Shown here piece after piece: positions 1,718-61,226 of a DNA stretch of 64,000 nucleotides. Origin of the DNA: Pseudofrankia sp. DC12 (GTDB lineage Bacteria; Actinomycetota; Actinomycetes; Frankiales; Frankiaceae). The notes below the pieces were generated by a model that saw only the letters and a program-made list of their open reading frames with translations, did no database searches and was not told the origin of the DNA. The position numbers and the translations under genes were made by a program. Numbering within the stretch: position 1 is the stretch's first letter; every line of letters begins with the position of its first letter. Where the stretch lies: NCBI RefSeq assembly GCF_000966285.1, contig NZ_KQ031391.1, positions 4,822,383-4,886,382 on the forward strand, given 5' to 3'.

Positions 1718-1943
1718 GACGCCATAGAGTAAGCGCAATCGATGGCGGATCCGTCGCTACCAGAGGGCCTCAGTTGACGGGCGTGGCGGGGGCACGGCGC
1801 GGCAGAACCGGGTGTCCCGGACAGGCAGCGCAGACCCCGTCCGGCGCAGACCCCGTCCGGCGCGGCCACCGGACCGGCGGCCGCGCGGCACGCCGCGGAC
1901 ACGACCCGACGGCACACGACGAGACGAAGAGGGTGGGCGACGG
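1718..1943. promoter_or_regulatory. Divergent intergenic region of the polysaccharide genes
   Basis: The 226 bp between the CapD-like and Wzz-like starts must hold promoters for both directions. It contains a perfect 16-bp tandem duplication at 1828-1859. An open frame reaches upstream to 1812 on the plus strand, but the residues are Arg/Pro-rich and lack family similarity, so I treat it as non-coding. No promoter hexamers are convincing. Confidence 0.4.
1828..1859. repeat. 16-bp perfect tandem repeat, two copies
   Basis: The unit GCGCAGACCCCGTCCG occurs twice head to tail upstream of the Wzz/BY-kinase-like gene. It is one of many short tandem duplications in this window. Confidence 0.8.
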
Positions 1944-3581
1944 GTGGAACTACGGGTGTACGCGCGCGTGCTGCGCCGTGGCTGGCTCCTCGTCCTGGCC
2001 CTCGCGGCGGCCGGCGGGCTGCTCTCGGCCGTGGTGACCTGGCAGGCGACCAGGACGTACGCCGCGACCGTGACCATGCTCGTCTCCACCGCCGGTGACG
2101 GCTCGAACGACTCGTCGGCCGACGACAGCGGGCAGCTCTCCCGGCAGCGGGTGAGGTCCTACGCGAAACTGGTCGCCAGCGACCGGGTCGCTGTCGCGGT
2201 GATTGGCCGGCTGCATCTGACCGAGAGCCCCGACGCGCTGCGCAGCCGGATCGTCACCCAGGCCGTGCCCGACACGCTACTGCTGCGGGTCAGCGTCCGC
2301 GATTCGAGCGCGTCGCGGGCCGAGCACCTCGCGGACGCCGTCGGGGCCGCGTTCTCCGCGGCGGTCGCCCAGACCGAGGCGCCCAGCCCGGGCCAGCGGC
2401 CGACTGCCCGGGTCACCGCCTGGGAGGCGGCGAAGCTGCCCGCCGGCCCGGTGACGCCGCGGCCGGCGCGTAACCTGGTGCTCGGCCTGCTCTTCGGCCT
2501 GGCCGCCGGCCTCGGCGCCATGTTCGTGCGGTACCGGCTTTACGCCGGCCACTGCGACGACGCTGAGGCCGCCGCGATCACCGGCCGGCCGGCCCTCGGG
2601 TCGATCGTCTTCGACCCCGAGGCCGCCCGCCGCCCGCTGATCGTGCACGCGAGCCCGCACTCGCCGCGGGCTGAGGGTTTCCGCCTCCTGCGCGCCAACC
2701 TGCGTTTCGCTGGCGTCGACGGCGGGCCACGCTCGATCGTCATCACCGGTTCCGGGCCCGACGAGGGCAGGTCGACGACCAGCTGCAACCTGGCGATCAC
2801 GCTGGCGCAGGCCGGCGCCCGGGTCTGCCTGCTGGAAGGCGACCTGCGCCGGCCGTCGTTCGCCGCATACCTCGGCGTCGACGTGACCGCTGGGCTCACC
2901 TCGGTGCTGATCGGCGCAGCCAAGCTCGACGACGTGCTGCAGCCGTGGCGCACCGGCCGCTATCCGGCGCTGGGCAGCACCGGCCCGTCTTTGGCCGTGC
3001 GAGATGCCGGCCCGTCTTTGGCCGCGGGAAGTGCTGGCCCGTCGTTTGCCGCTGGTGGCAGGGGCTGGCTCGGCGACGGCTGTGTCGATGTGCTGCCGAG
3101 CGGCCCGGTCCCACCGGACCCGAGTGAGCTGTTGGGCTCGCGCGCGATGGCTGAGCTCCTCGAGCAGCTCTCCGGGCGATATGACGTGGTGCTCGTCGAC
3201 GCGCCGCCGCTGCTCGCGACCTCCGACGCCACGGTGCTGGCTGGCCGGGCTGGTGGCACCCTGCTCGTCGTCCGGATCGGGCGGACCCGGCGGGCGCGGC
3301 TGCGCCGCGCGGCGGCGGCGCTGCGGTCGGTCGACGCCAGGGTGCTCGGCACCGTGCTGAACATGGTCCCGCCGCCGGGCTCTGTCGACGAGGAGCGGGG
3401 GCTGTTCGACGCCTTCCCCCCGCGCGGCCGCCGTCCCAGGGCCGAGCTGGCCCTGGCCGGGCGGCCCAGCGTGGCGCGGGCCGCCGACGCGGGCCCGCCC
3501 GATGGGCCGGTCAGCCTCACCCCCCTGCCCAACCAGCGCTCTGACGGGGAAAGCCTGATGACGGGGGCCACCACGCGATGA
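1944..3581 (+). CDS. Wzz/BY-kinase-like polysaccharide chain-length and tyrosine-autokinase family protein with altered Walker A
   Basis: Family role: control of polysaccharide chain length and export through an inner-membrane Wzz domain fused to a cytoplasmic P-loop tyrosine kinase. About 545 residues. Two membrane spans (about 14-32 and 175-197) bracket the Wzz domain; the P-loop domain follows. Walker A reads GSGPDEGRSTTS, with Arg276 where the family has the nucleotide-binding Lys (EGKST); Walker A' is LLEGDLRRP and Walker B is VVLVDAPP. The C-terminal tail has no tyrosine cluster, which true BY-kinases autophosphorylate. The GTG at 1944 was chosen because AGAGGG lies upstream and the protein then begins just before the first span. 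It carries an internal 27-bp x3 repeat and overlaps the DUF4012 gene by 4 bp, so the two are probably cotranscribed. Confidence 0.85.
   Translation: MELRVYARVLRRGWLLVLALAAAGGLLSAVVTWQATRTYAATVTMLVSTAGDGSNDSSADDSGQLSRQRVRSYAKLVASDRVAVAVIGRLHLTESPDALRSRIVTQAVPDTLLLRVSVRDSSASRAEHLADAVGAAFSAAVAQTEAPSPGQRPTARVTAWEAAKLPAGPVTPRPARNLVLGLLFGLAAGLGAMFVRYRLYAGHCDDAEAAAITGRPALGSIVFDPEAARRPLIVHASPHSPRAEGFRLLRANLRFAGVDGGPRSIVITGSGPDEGRSTTSCNLAITLAQAGARVCLLEGDLRRPSFAAYLGVDVTAGLTSVLIGAAKLDDVLQPWRTGRYPALGSTGPSLAVRDAGPSLAAGSAGPSFAAGGRGWLGDGCVDVLPSGPVPPDPSELLGSRAMAELLEQLSGRYDVVLVDAPPLLATSDATVLAGRAGGTLLVVRIGRTRRARLRRAAAALRSVDARVLGTVLNMVPPPGSVDEERGLFDAFPPRGRRPRAELALAGRPSVARAADAGPPDGPVSLTPLPNQRSDGESLMTGATTR
2980..3060 (+). 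repeat. 27-bp in-frame tandem repeat, three copies
   Basis: Three imperfect 27-bp copies starting at 2980, 3007 and 3034 encode three 9-residue units built on GPSLA (GPSLAVRDA, GPSLAAGSA, GPSFAAGGR) in the Wzz/BY-kinase-like protein. The insert lies between Walker A' and Walker B, in a region that is normally short, and probably forms a flexible loop. Confidence 0.85.
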
Positions 3582-54894: not shown

Positions 54895-57456
54895 GTGCCT
54901 ACGGCCGTTCTGAAGATAAGCAGCGAGGCCGGCCAGGTGATCGTCCCCACGGGACAGCCGCGGTTCATCATCGGCCGAGCCCGCAACGCGGACTATGTCA
55001 TCGCGGACAGCCGGGTCTCCCGGCAGCACCTGATGATCGAAGAGACGGACTACGGCTGGGCCGTCCGGGACGTCAGCTCCAACGGCACCTGGTACGACGG
55101 TGGCCGGATGCTGAACACGGTCGAGGTCCGGGGCGAGACGCGGTTCCGCCTGGGCACGCCGACCGGTCCCGAGGTCATCATCCTCGACGAGCTGCCCTCG
55201 CAGCGGTCTCCGTACGACGACCCCTACAGCGGGGACGCCGACATGCAGACCATGCTGCCCAACCAGACCGGTTACAGCCCGCCGCGTACGTCGAACCGGC
55301 CCACCCGGCCGACGCGGCGCGAGGACCACGACGCCGGCCGTCGTGGCACCTACAACGGCCAGCCCGCCGCCGACCCGGCCGAGGTCAGCGGCCACACCCG
55401 GCTGGACCGCGAGCACGAGCGCAGCAACACCTACCCGCTGCGCCAGGGGACGATGACGATCGGTCGCGCCCGCGACAACGACGTCGTCATCACCGACCTG
55501 CTCGCCTCCCGTCACCACGCCTCGCTGACCGTTCGCGGCCAGAACGTCGACGTCCTCGACATGGACTCGGCGAACGGCACGTTCGTCAATGGCCGCCGCA
55601 TCCAGCGCGCGCAGGCCAAGCAGGGCGACGTCATCGCCGTCGGCCACCACGTCTTCCAGCTCGAGGGCAACCTGCTCGTCGAGTACGTCGACTCCGGTGA
55701 CGTCAGCTTCGAGGCCGAGCACCTCAACGTGTGGGCCGGCGAGAAGCAGCTCATGCACGACATGACCTTCCGGCTGCCCGGCCGGGCGCTGCTCGGCGTC
55801 GTCGGCCCCTCGGGTGCCGGCAAGTCGACGCTGCTCAACGCGCTGACCGGCTTCCGGCCGGCCGACCAGGGCACCGTGCGCTACGCCGGTCGAGACCTCT
55901 ACACCGAGTACGACGAGCTTCGCCGCAGGATCGGCTACGTGCCGCAGGACGACATCCTGCACACCACGCTGACCGTGCGGAAGGCGCTCGAGTTCGGCGC
56001 CGAGCTCCGGTTCCCGCCGGACGTGACCTCGGCCGAGCGCAGCGCCCGGGTGGACGAGGTCCTCCAGGAGCTGAACCTCACCAGCCACGCGAACACCGTG
56101 GTCTCGCGGCTGTCCGGTGGCCAGCGCAAGCGGACCTCGGTGGCGCTGGAGCTGCTGACCCGCCCGACGCTGCTCTACTTGGACGAGCCGACCTCGGGTC
56201 TCGACCCGGGCATGGACCTGCAGGTCATGCAGTCGCTGCGCAAGCTGGCCGACGACGGCCGTACGGTCGTCGTCGTCACGCACTCCGTGGCGCAGCTCGA
56301 CCTGTGTGACTACATCCTGGTGCTCGCGCCGGGTGGCTACGTCGCCTACTTCGGGCCACCCCAGGACGCGCTGCCGTTCTTCGGCGCTGACGGCTACCCG
56401 TGGGTCTTCCTGAACCTGCAGGAGAACCCCGGTGCCGAGTCCGCGGCCCGGTTCCGCCAGTCACGGCACTACGTGCCCGCGTCGGTGACCGCTCCGTCGG
56501 CCCGGCCCGCGCCGGAGGAACTGCCGAGCATCCGGCAACAGTCGGTGTTCTCCCAGCTGATAACGCTGACAAGACGAACATTCGCGGTCATCGGGTCCGA
56601 CAAGGGCTATCTGCGGCTGGCAATCGCGTTCCCGTTCGTGCTGGGTGTGATCCCGCGGGCGATCGGCGGAAACTTCGTCGATACCCACGACAAGTTCACA
56701 CCCAACTCGGACGCGCCCACGATCTTCCTGATCATGGTGCTGTGTGCCTGCTTCATGGGTATGTCGAACTCGGTCCGAGAGATCGTCAAGGAACGGGCGA
56801 TCTATCAACGAGAACGCGCGATCGGCCTTTCGAGAGCCGCGTACGTGGGCTCGAAGGTTCTCGTTCTCATCATCATCACGGTCCTGCAGTCGATCCCGTT
56901 CACGGTCATCGGTCTGATCGGCCGGCAGCCACCGAACCACCTGGCGCTCGGCAACACACTGCTGGAATGTCTCCTCGCGGTGTTCGTCGTCGGCTTCGCC
57001 TCCGGCATGGTCGGCCTGGTGATCTCGGCGATGGTGGACAACGCCGACAAGACGATGCCGCTGCTGGTCATCGTCACGATGATCCAGCTCGTGTTCTCCG
57101 CGGGCATCGTGCCGATCGCCGGCAAGGTCGGCCTCGAGCAGGTCGCCGTCGTCTCACCGGCCCGGTGGGGCTACGCGGCGATGGCCGCCGACGCCGACTT
57201 CAACGCGATCACCCGGGCCGGCGTCCAGCGGCCCAAGACCGTGAACGGCCAGCCGGTGGCCGGCCAGACCGTGCCGGTCAACCCGCGGGCGCCGATCCCG
57301 GACACGCTGTTCCAGCACACGAACAAGCAGTACGCGATCGACATCGGCGCCGGGCTCGCCATCAGCCTTGTATACGTCGGTATCACGTCGCTGCTGCTGC
57401 GCAGGCTCGACCCGAAGACGAGCAAGAAACGCAAGGCGGCACCGGCGACCACCTGA
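54895..57456 (+). CDS. FHA-domain ABC transporter (ATPase plus ABC-2 membrane domain), Rv1747-like
   Basis: 853 residues. Two N-terminal FHA phosphothreonine-binding domains: GRARNADYVIADSRVSRQH (about 27-46) and GRARDNDVVITDLLASRHH (about 190-210), each with the Arg, Ser and His that contact phosphothreonine. An ABC ATPase follows (Walker A GPSGAGKST near 304, LSGGQRKRT, Walker B LLYLDEPTSGLDPG), then a six-span ABC-2 domain. The design matches mycobacterial Rv1747, an exporter controlled by the Ser/Thr kinase PknF through its FHA domains. A Ser/Thr kinase gene lies 1.5 kb downstream. GTG at 54895 follows GGGGGA. A long hairpin follows the gene. Confidence 0.93.
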   Translation: MPTAVLKISSEAGQVIVPTGQPRFIIGRARNADYVIADSRVSRQHLMIEETDYGWAVRDVSSNGTWYDGGRMLNTVEVRGETRFRLGTPTGPEVIILDELPSQRSPYDDPYSGDADMQTMLPNQTGYSPPRTSNRPTRPTRREDHDAGRRGTYNGQPAADPAEVSGHTRLDREHERSNTYPLRQGTMTIGRARDNDVVITDLLASRHHASLTVRGQNVDVLDMDSANGTFVNGRRIQRAQAKQGDVIAVGHHVFQLEGNLLVEYVDSGDVSFEAEHLNVWAGEKQLMHDMTFRLPGRALLGVVGPSGAGKSTLLNALTGFRPADQGTVRYAGRDLYTEYDELRRRIGYVPQDDILHTTLTVRKALEFGAELRFPPDVTSAERSARVDEVLQELNLTSHANTVVSRLSGGQRKRTSVALELLTRPTLLYLDEPTSGLDPGMDLQVMQSLRKLADDGRTVVVVTHSVAQLDLCDYILVLAPGGYVAYFGPPQDALPFFGADGYPWVFLNLQENPGAESAARFRQSRHYVPASVTAPSARPAPEELPSIRQQSVFSQLITLTRRTFAVIGSDKGYLRLAIAFPFVLGVIPRAIGGNFVDTHDKFTPNSDAPTIFLIMVLCACFMGMSNSVREIVKERAIYQRERAIGLSRAAYVGSKVLVLIIITVLQSIPFTVIGLIGRQPPNHLALGNTLLECLLAVFVVGFASGMVGLVISAMVDNADKTMPLLVIVTMIQLVFSAGIVPIAGKVGLEQVAVVSPARWGYAAMAADADFNAITRAGVQRPKTVNGQPVAGQTVPVNPRAPIPDTLFQHTNKQYAIDIGAGLAISLVYVGITSLLLRRLDPKTSKKRKAAPATT

Positions 57457-57477
57457 CCCGGTCCGCTCGCCCCGCGA

Positions 57478-57527
57478 CCGACGGCGGCGGGTGGCCCTCC
57501 ACATGGAGGGCCACCCGCCGCCGTCGG
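57478..57527 (+). terminator. Long perfect hairpin after the FHA-ABC gene
   Basis: 23-bp perfect arms (57478-57500 and 57505-57527) around a 4-nt loop, ACAT, starting 21 nt after the stop codon. Confidence 0.85.
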
Positions 57528-57633
57528 CGTCTGTCGGTTCCGGCGTCCGGCCTTGGCTGGTCGCCGGCTGTGCTCTCCGGTCGCCGTGAAACGACCGTGG
57601 CCCCTGCTGCCCAAGCCGGGGCCAGCCCAGGGC

Positions 57634-58088
57634 CAGCCGGACCGGGAGTGCCTTGAAGGCGTTGTTCAGGTTGGACCGGGCCCGCACTGGCGCGCCGGCC
57701 CGCTCGATGCCGCGGAACGCGGTGAGCAGCTCCTCGAAGAACACCCGGCCCTCCAGCCGGGCCGGCTGGGCGCCGAGGCAGAAATGCTCACACCGCAGGG
57801 TGTGGACGGAGCCCGCGGGTTCGTAGAGGTAGGAGCCGGCGCGGTTCACGTAGTCGTACTCCTTGTACTTCCACCCGCCGGCGACCGTGTAGCCGAAAAC
57901 GGGGCCGGCGTGCCGGTGGGTCGCCACCTCATAGCCGGCCTGAAAGATGTTCTCCACGATCCACAGGCCCTCGGCCGCGCGGACGTGAACCACCTTCAGC
58001 TTGTTCCCGCCGCCGATCTCGACAAAGTTAAGTCCTCGGCGAGGATGTGAGTCGCCAGCGGTGTGTTCCGGCTGTCCAGCGCGGTCAT
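57634..58088 (-). pseudogene. Chimeric pseudogene: cupin acetophenone-dioxygenase-like 5' part, frameshifted, fused to a cytochrome P450 3' end
   Basis: An ATG at 58088 (with AAAGGCGG upstream) starts MTALDSRNTPLATHILAED, then the frame must slip by -1 at about 58032 to continue LNFVEIGGGNKLKVVHV. The text then follows the 2,4'-dihydroxyacetophenone dioxygenase-like cupin family (THRHAGPVFGYTVAGGWKY, NRAGSYLYEPAGSVHTL). At about 57785 it changes abruptly to HFCLGAQPARLEGRVFFEELL...RSNLNNAFKALPVRL, the last 55 or so residues of a cytochrome P450, including the haem-ligand Cys. No stop follows the P450 end. The frameshift and the fusion both argue for decay through deletion between two once-separate genes. 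Confidence 0.75.
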
Positions 58089-58997
58089 GAGGTCCGCCTT
58101 TCCGCGGGAGGATTCGGACCGGGCCAGGCGCGTCGACGTCCGGCCACGGGATGCCGGCGGCCGGGTGAGGCGGAGCCCGGGCGGGCCTCGGCCGCGTGTG
58201 CGCCTGGCCGGCGGAGCCGGGAACCGGCCCGCACCGGCCGGCGTCGGCGAGCATGTGCGGACGGTACGGTCGGCCTGACTGGTCGTCAAGGGACCCTCCG
58301 CACGCAATGGCAGGTGGCGGCTACTACGCGGCCGGATCGGTTTCCGTGTACCGCTCGGACACGTATTGTTCGCTACCGGTGGGCGAAAACCCGCCGAGGC
58401 GGCCGGCCTGCCCGCCCAGGCGCCGTGCTGGGCCGCGCCGGCCGGCGGCCGTCGGCGGCTTGCGGCTGGTGGTTCGGGACCGTCCAAGAAATCTTGCGGA
58501 ATATCGTACAGATACGGTTTCTTCGCCGCGGTCCCGCGGTGAGATGCCTATGGCTGGACCGCCACCCAGAACCGGCACGCGGGGGGCGTCAGTTCGGGCC
58601 AGCGGCCAGCGGTCCAGCCACCCACTCATCGCTCGGCCCACGGTTGGCCGGGCACGTCAGGCAGGCGGGCCGGCCGTCGGCGATCGGATGACGCGACCGA
58701 GCCCGACTGGCCAGGCCGCCGAGGACGCCAGAAGAACGGGCCCGCGCGCGACACTTCACGTCGCACCGCAGCCCAGGCCGGCCGAGAGCCCGGGTTAGGC
58801 GCTACCGGCACTCCGCTTGTCCGGCCCGTGGTCCGCGATGCGCCGCAGTGTCTCGAGGTGTCGCGCCGCCGACCCTTGCCGCTTCGATTCCGAGGCATTC
58901 CCGGAATTCGGCAGACGGTAGCATTCTGCCCGCATGGGATCGTTATTCGGGACCGTCGCGTGTCCGGCGTCGGGTGGGGGAGAACAGAGGTGGGGCA
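58089..58997. other. Gene-poor region between the chimeric pseudogene and the Ser/Thr kinase
   Basis: About 909 bp with no supportable gene. A locally AT-richer stretch at 58485-58535 and an imperfect palindrome at 58345-58363 (CGTGT...ACACG) may be old regulatory DNA of the decayed gene. GGCAGA/TCTGCC (58910-58930) is a short inverted repeat before the kinase gene, whose ribosome site GAGGTGGGG is near 58987. Confidence 0.4.
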
Positions 58998-61226
58998 GTG
59001 ACGTCGTCAGAGGCGAATGTCAGCAGCCGCGCGACGCCGTTGGGTGAGAACGACCCGCGGACGCTCGGTGCGTACACGCTGCTGGGCAAGCTCGGGCAGG
59101 GTGGGATGGGCACGGTCTACCTGGGCCGGTCCGAGCTGGGGCGCCTGGTGGCCATCAAGGTGGTCCGCGCGGACGTGGCCGACGACCCGCAGTTCCGCAG
59201 CCGGTTCCGCCAGGAGGCGGCGACGGCGCGCCGGGTCGCTCGGGTGTGCACCGCCGAGGTGCTCGACTTCGACCCTGACGCGGTGCAGCCCTACCTGGTC
59301 ACCGAGTTCATCGAGGGCCCGACGCTGTCCAGCTTCGTCTCCCGGGGCGGCCCGCTGATGGCGGCCAACCTCGAGCAGCTCGCCGTGGGTGTGGCCGCCG
59401 CGCTGCGGGCCATCCACGCCGCCGGCATCGTGCACCGCGACCTCAAGCCGTCGAACGTCGTGCTGTCCCCGTTCGGCCCGCGGGTCATCGACTTCGGCAT
59501 CGCCCGGGCGATGGACTCCGCGACCAACCTCACCGGCGACCTTCAGCAGCTGGGCACGCCCGCGTTCATGTCCCCCGAGCAGATCCGCGGCGACGCGATC
59601 ACCTCGAAGGCGGACATCTGGGCCTGGGGCGGCCTGGTGACCTACGCGGCGACCGGCCAGTACCCGTTCGGCACCGGCAGCGCCCAGGCGCTCCTCTACC
59701 GGGCGATGAACGAGGAACCGCAGCTCGACGGCGTCGACCCGGCGCTGCGGCCGATCGTCTGGGACGCGATGCGCAAGAGCCCGGCCAACCGGCCGACCGC
59801 CAGCCAGCTGATGGACCGGCTCCTCGGGGACGAGGCCGGGGACACGGGTAACCAGGAAGAAGCGGTCACCAACGTCCTCGCGGACTGGAACGTGCCTTCT
59901 CCGGGTGCTGGCGGCCCCCCGTCCGGCCCCGCTACGGTCGGCGGCCCGCCCGACATGGCCACCCTCGCCTCGACCAGGCCGGGCGGCACGGCGGACCAGG
60001 ACTACGTCTCGACCCAGCTCGCGACCCAGCGGGTGGCCCCGCCCCCGGCCGGTCCCGGGCACCCGGGCCAGGCTCAGCCACCCGGCCCGGCGCCGAAGAA
60101 GAGCCGGACGCCGATGATCCTCGGGATCGCGGCGGTGGTCGTGGTCATCGCGGTGCTGGCCGCCGTGATCCCGATGGTGCTGAAGAGCGACTCCAAGAAC
60201 ACCCCGAGCGCGACCGTCGGTACCGGCACGGCCAGCGCCGCGCCGGCCGCGTTCGCGCTGCCGAAGGCGGCCACCGGGCTGGGCGACGACACCCTCGTCC
60301 TCAGCCGGAACGCGGAGGCGCCAGGCGGCGGGAAGTACAGCCTCGTCACCGCGGTGGTCCCGAACCCCGACAGCGCCGACGCCACGCTGCCGAAGATCTC
60401 CACGTTCAAGACGATCTTCAGCGACAAGACCCAGAACCTGCAGTTCCCGGTGATCAGTCCGGACCGCAAGACGATTATCTATGTCGACAACTCGACCGGC
60501 AGCACGACACTGTGGGCCATCGCGTCCGACGGTTCCGGAAAGCCGGTCCAGCTGCTCACCACCGGGCAGGGAGCGAACCTGTCGCCGGCCGCCGACGGGC
60601 GGCCGTCGCTGTCGCCGGACGGCAAGTTCCTGGTGCTGCGCTCGACGACGGACGCGACCGGCCAGCCCAACCCGGGCCTGTACATCAGCTCGATCGACGG
60701 CAAGACCGTCCGTCGGCTCGACACCCAGCCAGAGGCGTCTGACCCGTCGTGGTCGCCGGACGGCGAGCGGATCGCCTACTGGTCGAACACCGTCGCGGGC
60801 GGCGGCGGCGGCTTCCTGGTGCTCATCTCGACCCAGCCGGGTGTCGCCGCGGTGCCGTTCAACAAGGACGAGTTCATCTCGGAGGGCGACAAGCCCAATC
60901 TCGACTCCGAGCCGACCTGGTCGCCCGACGGCAAGTACCTCGCCTTCGTCCGCCAGATCGCCAGCAACCCCAATGACCAGCAGATCGCGATCGTGAACGT
61001 GAACACCAAGCACGTCACCGCGGTCACCGGCGAGCACAGCACCCAGGACGGCCCGAGCTGGTCGGCGTCCGGAAGTGATCTCCTGCTCTTCACCGCCAAC
61101 CGGGACCCCGACCACCCGGACGACCGGCAGCTGTTCATGACCAACCAGAAGAACCTCGACGCCGCCGACCGTCAGCTCACCGACGGCCGGGGCGACTTCG
61201 CGTTCCCCCGGTGGTCCGCGCTCTGA
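58998..61226 (+). CDS. Membrane Ser/Thr protein kinase with extracellular TolB/WD40-like propeller
   Basis: 742 residues. Kinase domain about 24-285: Gly loop LGQGGMGTVYLG, Lys in VAIKVVRAD, HRD in VHRDLKPSN, DFG in VIDFGIA, and SPEQ. A Pro-rich juxtamembrane stretch leads to one membrane span (MILGIAAVVVVIAVLAAVIP). The outside part has PD40-type repeats (SPDGKFLVLRS, WSPDGERIAYWSN, WSPDGKYLAFVRQ, WSASGSDLLLFTA), a beta-propeller likely to sense a ligand or cell-wall part. Complete active site. It is a plausible partner for the FHA-ABC exporter upstream. GTG at 58998 follows GAGGTGGGG. Confidence 0.92.
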   Translation: MTSSEANVSSRATPLGENDPRTLGAYTLLGKLGQGGMGTVYLGRSELGRLVAIKVVRADVADDPQFRSRFRQEAATARRVARVCTAEVLDFDPDAVQPYLVTEFIEGPTLSSFVSRGGPLMAANLEQLAVGVAAALRAIHAAGIVHRDLKPSNVVLSPFGPRVIDFGIARAMDSATNLTGDLQQLGTPAFMSPEQIRGDAITSKADIWAWGGLVTYAATGQYPFGTGSAQALLYRAMNEEPQLDGVDPALRPIVWDAMRKSPANRPTASQLMDRLLGDEAGDTGNQEEAVTNVLADWNVPSPGAGGPPSGPATVGGPPDMATLASTRPGGTADQDYVSTQLATQRVAPPPAGPGHPGQAQPPGPAPKKSRTPMILGIAAVVVVIAVLAAVIPMVLKSDSKNTPSATVGTGTASAAPAAFALPKAATGLGDDTLVLSRNAEAPGGGKYSLVTAVVPNPDSADATLPKISTFKTIFSDKTQNLQFPVISPDRKTIIYVDNSTGSTTLWAIASDGSGKPVQLLTTGQGANLSPAADGRPSLSPDGKFLVLRSTTDATGQPNPGLYISSIDGKTVRRLDTQPEASDPSWSPDGERIAYWSNTVAGGGGGFLVLISTQPGVAAVPFNKDEFISEGDKPNLDSEPTWSPDGKYLAFVRQIASNPNDQQIAIVNVNTKHVTAVTGEHSTQDGPSWSASGSDLLLFTANRDPDHPDDRQLFMTNQKNLDAADRQLTDGRGDFAFPRWSAL

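Follow-up and report, generated by a model that had tools for sequence, protein, structure and literature searches.

A recent deletion pseudogene, in all probability, joins the remains of a conserved cupin–cytochrome P450 gene pair in Pseudofrankia sp. DC12

Introduction

The gene pair considered here resembles two described kinds of enzyme, 2,4'-dihydroxyacetophenone dioxygenase (DAD) and the CYP125/steroid C26-monooxygenase group of cytochromes P450, and its fused remnant in the soil actinobacterium Pseudofrankia sp. DC12 resembles deletion pseudogenes between adjacent bacterial genes. The intact enzymes used for comparison are those of a congener, G001, which we take to be strain EuI1c. The iron ligands of DAD are His76, His78 and His114 (PMC4219425), and in the enzyme from Alcaligenes sp. 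4HAP (PDB 4p9g, 5bpx), with which the G001 protein shares a cupin domain, they align with H61, H63 and H99 of the latter. The alignment covers about 90 residues at E 5e-8, which does not amount to close sequence kinship with the characterised enzyme, and the intact G001 cupin is closer to the uncharacterised cupins 3cjx and 3ebr than to DAD. Given how remote the kinship of this cupin to DAD is, the label "2,4'-dihydroxyacetophenone dioxygenase family protein" under which databases list it tells little about its substrate. The cupin also differs from DAD in that its usual partner is a P450, and the DC12 copy lacks the C-terminal part.

The intact G001 P450 contains the PF00067 domain with the haem-thiolate cysteine, and its best matches among solved structures are CYP125 entries (PDB 8vxg, an ancestral CYP125, as well as 2x5w and 5dqn), with 365 bits to entries named CYP125MRCA and 229 bits to a natural CYP125. 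As judged from its sequence, this P450 would thus be CYP125-like, differing from the described group by being paired with a cupin; the DC12 copy comprises the haem loop and C-terminus only. With deletion pseudogenes between adjacent bacterial genes, the DC12 locus has in common the joined neighbours, the frameshift, the lost stop and the intact orthologues in relatives. It differs from them in nothing of principle, its joint being in frame by a one-in-three chance, and the lesion is ordinary gene decay.

Results

The window is the whole stretch of DC12 DNA that was analysed, 64,000 nucleotides long. Open reading frames and alignments place in it, at 57622-58088 on the minus strand, a fused pseudogene with a cupin front and a P450 tail, in which the first two thirds of a cupin gene are joined in frame to the final 55 codons of a P450 gene. 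The translation passes from the cupin (NFVEIGGG...SYLYEPAGSVHTL) into EHFCLGAQPARLEG...LNNAFKALPVRL, which is the haem loop and C-terminus of a P450, with no stop between them. The cupin remnant (57790-58088, minus strand) begins with the start codon at 58088 (ATGACCGCG) and keeps its codons up to SVHTL-R-C, about 55 terminal codons having been deleted. Its match to Pfam Cupin_7 (2.8e-11) passes the cut-off of that family, and all three iron-ligand histidines are still encoded. A ribosome-binding-like GGAAAGGCGG has been retained ahead of the dead start (58094-58103, minus strand) and is similar in G003-G006. No second copy of the cupin that could serve as a replacement was found in the DC12 genome. 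The P450 remnant (57625-57789, minus strand), delimited by DNA alignment and by matches to congener P450s, spans from the haem-thiolate cysteine (EHFCLGA) to the C-terminus and has lost about 400 first codons. It is too short for Pfam and matches P450 models in NCBIfam weakly (0.0002-0.002). Its match is nevertheless not due to chance, since it shows 70-91% identity (E 5e-27 to 2e-19) to the cupin-adjacent P450 of all seven congeners.

These congeners, G001-G007, are seven other genomes of the genus, among them Frankia sp. AgB1.9, F. nepalensis CN7, Pseudofrankia asymbiotica and Pseudofrankia sp. BMG5.36; G007 is a 5.4-Mb metagenome bin. The first-pass annotation had proposed that two neighbouring genes were fused by a deletion and had called for a search of relatives for the intact pair. 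The proposed fusion is borne out: we found the two genes separate, intact and adjacent, cupin then P450, in all seven. The congener cupins are 86-95% identical to the DC12 remnant over the shared part (95% for G001), and in each genome the best match of the DC12 P450 tail is the P450 immediately downstream of the cupin. The fused architecture, whose presence in several species would have meant a real fusion protein, was found in none of the seven. In G001 and G002 the cupin stop and the P450 start overlap by 4 bp (ATGA), an arrangement that typically marks a translationally coupled operon. The locus is flanked by an FHA-domain ABC transporter gene (54895-57456, plus strand), convergent with the P450 remnant, and by a Ser/Thr protein kinase gene (58998-61226, plus strand), divergent from the cupin. 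Both are conserved neighbours, kept at the same place in G001, G002, G004, G005 and G006; the G003 contig ends past the P450, and the ABC gene of G007 occupies another place on its contig.

Three separate lesions distinguish DC12: a 1.35-kb deletion, a 1-base frameshift and a lost stop. Alignment to relatives puts the deletion junction at 57789-57791 (minus strand), near the position of about 57785 given by the first-pass annotation. DC12 aligns to G001 at 57624-57791 and 57795-58073, and 1.35 kb of G001 DNA lies between as a clean gap. The net deletion amounts to 1,349 bp against G001 (EuI1c) and 1,319 bp against G002 (AgB1.9), the two closest relatives, a difference due to internal length variation of the P450. 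The short homology for which the junction was to be inspected is 3 bp at most (GTG, common to both ends if the ancestral cupin side read TGT-GTC), and at least 3 bp are shared by chance at about 8% of random breakpoints with such spacing. Homology therefore had no visible part in the event, and we reject a homology-driven deletion, for which the ends offer no repeat. Since cupin and P450 occupy different frames in G001 and G002, the open fused frame is a one-in-three accident.

The frameshift, evident from both the DNA alignment and the list of open reading frames, is the loss of one base at 58024-58028 (minus strand), after about codon 20 of the cupin, where DC12 has GACTTA-ACTTT and its relatives GACTTACCCTTC. 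Reading from the ATG at 58088 stops after 30 codons at 57996, and the rest of the cupin lies in another frame. The off-frame start had thus been recognised correctly in the first-pass annotation, with the shift placed at about 58032. A base-call error at this site is unlikely given an average coverage of 657x (PMC4541282). The third lesion, which the annotation did not contain, affects the former P450 stop codon (57622-57624, minus strand): TAG in the two closest relatives, it is TGG in DC12, and the frame consequently extends to 57154, antisense to the ABC transporter gene. As a separate observation, a rare TTA leucine codon stands at 58029-58031 of the cupin in DC12, G001, G002 and G003, with CTG or CTA at this place elsewhere; it is possibly a point of bldA-type control.

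Compared with the two sister genomes, DC12 differs in eight codons that change the amino acid, four each in the cupin remnant and the P450 tail. One of the four cupin changes (H>Y) is ancestral in DC12, and six of the eight changes, namely T>A after HRH, A>G, H>Q, L>P, V>A and S>A, alter residues that the seven relatives share without exception. The dN/dS of the P450 tail is about 0.36, versus 0.18 between the sisters. The excess of amino-acid changes on the DC12 branch is only suggestive, with a Fisher p of 0.05-0.08 in a short sequence. Because the cupin part is still 95% identical to that of G001, we regard the decay as recent and the data on selection as weak; either the break is young or the sequence compared is too short for a stronger statement.

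Between cupin and kinase lies a divergent intergenic region of 909 bp (58089-58997). The first-pass annotation had held that the lesion would explain these gene-poor 0.9 kb, a claim that the relatives contradict. The same gap measures 755 bp in G001, 756 in G002, 1000 in G004, 1201 in G005, 856 in G006 and 820 in G007, a range of 755-1,201 bp over six genomes whose genes are intact, so that no lesion is needed to account for it; the region is a divergent promoter region of the ordinary kind. Directly upstream of the cupin start, DC12 carries about 176 bp (58074-58249) versus only 19-35 bp in G001 and G002. The GGAAAGGC box, kept in DC12 and G003-G006, is also absent from these two, whose cupin may be started without a leader. 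Further upstream, a 73-bp element (58551-58623; TGGCTGGACCGYCACCCAGAACCGGCACGCGGGGGGCGTCAGTTCGGG...GGTCCAGCCACCC) is 87-96% conserved in five congeners, in contrast to most of the sequence around it. It is present once in each genome, its two ends form a 12-bp inverted repeat, and it folds no more stably than shuffled sequences (z -0.4 to -0.9); it could be an operator, or else a leader RNA, for the kinase gene or the cupin gene. On the other side of the locus, between the ABC gene and the P450 remnant, a long perfect hairpin (57478-57527, plus strand; fold z-score -8.5, inverted blastn matches in relatives) is probably a two-way terminator. An Rfam search of 57400-59100 returned only two sub-threshold microRNA models, both on this hairpin and attributable to chance.

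Beyond the genus, we surveyed 80 related loci from a species-level genome collection. A matching P450 lies within 4 kb of the cupin at 60 of them; it is directly downstream on the same strand at 42 by a strict test, and at a 43rd (L088, in G004) that the distance rule had overlooked, and it is adjacent in another orientation at 7. In 11 of 12 genomes (8 gammaproteobacterial, 4 actinobacterial) the P450 that, across the entire genome, is most similar to the G001 protein is the one that adjoins the cupin; in the twelfth, a gammaproteobacterium, no P450 match passed the threshold used. The pair thus recurs across Actinomycetota and Gammaproteobacteria. Recurring neighbours at the 80 loci are an SDR, two amidohydrolase families, a thiolase-like protein, a ChsH2-type OB-fold protein, a luciferase-like monooxygenase, an alpha/beta hydrolase and a class III CoA-transferase, a company that suggests CoA-linked breakdown of lipids, steroids or isoprenoids. 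A literature search of open-licence papers found no described cupin-P450 or cupin-CYP125 pair, and the intact pair is apparently a widespread, uncharacterised two-enzyme unit. In G001 a further cupin-P450 pair lies at a distance of about 4.5 Mb (locus L029, cupin match 1501-1731, P450 frame 1863-3086), in which the cupin is 64% and the P450 tail 63% identical; this pair is absent from DC12.

Discussion

Since no fused orthologue was found, we conclude with near certainty that the DC12 frame is a recent pseudogene created by a deletion in this lineage, and not a fusion protein. In the ancestor of DC12 the cupin and, behind it, the CYP125-like P450 would have formed an operon of two genes, transcribed leftwards, with the Ser/Thr kinase gene diverging from it on one side and the ABC transporter gene converging on it from the other. 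A deletion of about 1.35 kb in the line leading to DC12 would then have removed the DNA between roughly codon 100 of the cupin and a point immediately ahead of the P450's haem-cysteine loop, with an in-frame fusion as the accidental result. The break was presumably repaired by end joining or slippage, with no long homology involved. The remnant should yield no working enzyme, because the cupin has lost its conserved C-terminal region and the P450 everything before the haem loop. The locus captures gene loss cleanly, with the break in one catabolic operon still fresh.

A functional fusion protein would require a new start, and the upstream ATG at 58254 does open an uninterrupted frame of 366 amino acids that reads through the cupin and the P450 tail. 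A product is thus possible in principle, and codons remain for the three iron-ligand histidines as well as for the haem cysteine. However, the N-terminal part of this frame lies in DNA that does not align to the two sister genomes, the cupin is without its conserved C-terminal region and the P450 without about 400 codons, and the frame, its stop lost, ends in a tail antisense to the ABC gene. Such a protein is extremely improbable, and we reject it, as no relative among the seven congeners has the fusion. It could also be that the strain itself still has both genes intact and that the assembly collapsed or miscalled them, for the DC12 genome is a draft of 12 contigs in one scaffold whose gaps were closed by PCR and editing (PMC4541282). 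Yet the junction contains no repeat that would collapse, the average coverage is 657x (PMC4541282), and neither the stop loss nor the additional changes at invariant sites depend on the junction, all of which makes an artefact highly improbable. The first-pass annotation had seen in the locus a lost aromatic-ketone pathway, an idea encouraged by the NCBI name of the cupin's relatives and by the conservation in the cupin of the three iron-binding histidines of DAD (PMC4219425). This reading did not survive the comparison: similarity to DAD is weak (E 5e-8) and below that to 3cjx and 3ebr, the usual partner is a CYP125-like P450, and the neighbours that recur elsewhere (SDR, thiolase-like, ChsH2-type OB, CoA-transferase III, luciferase-like, amidohydrolase), suggestive of CoA-linked lipid, isoprenoid or steroid catabolism, point away from acetophenones. 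We consider the loss of a specific acetophenone pathway very unlikely.

As a tentative further reading, which we hold to be possible though less likely than not, the ancestor may have possessed a conserved, unnamed unit, shared by Actinomycetota and Gammaproteobacteria, in which a mononuclear-iron cupin and a particular CYP125-like P450 carry out consecutive oxidations of a lipid- or isoprenoid-like substrate. The linkage of the cupin to a specific P450 across phyla predicts a common substrate. The conserved pair is a lead worth keeping and more useful than the pseudogene itself.

The fused pseudogene fits a general loss of P450s in a reduced genome. At 6,884,336 bp (PMC4541282), DC12 has the smallest isolate genome among the genus members compared and about one third of the usual P450 count: a uniform search gave 24 matches in DC12 versus 71, 77, 82, 82, 82 and 85 in six congeners, and 18 in G007, the 5.4-Mb metagenome bin. 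Loss of the operon may accordingly have been part of a wider loss of P450 catabolism in DC12. Two other P450 matches in this genome, L003 (1501-1671, G000:C1:6533638-6533808) and L006 (1501-1710, G000:C1:2434315-2434524), cover only the C-terminal third when any frame within 1.5 kb is compared with a two-sequence P450 profile, and are possible further P450 remnants.
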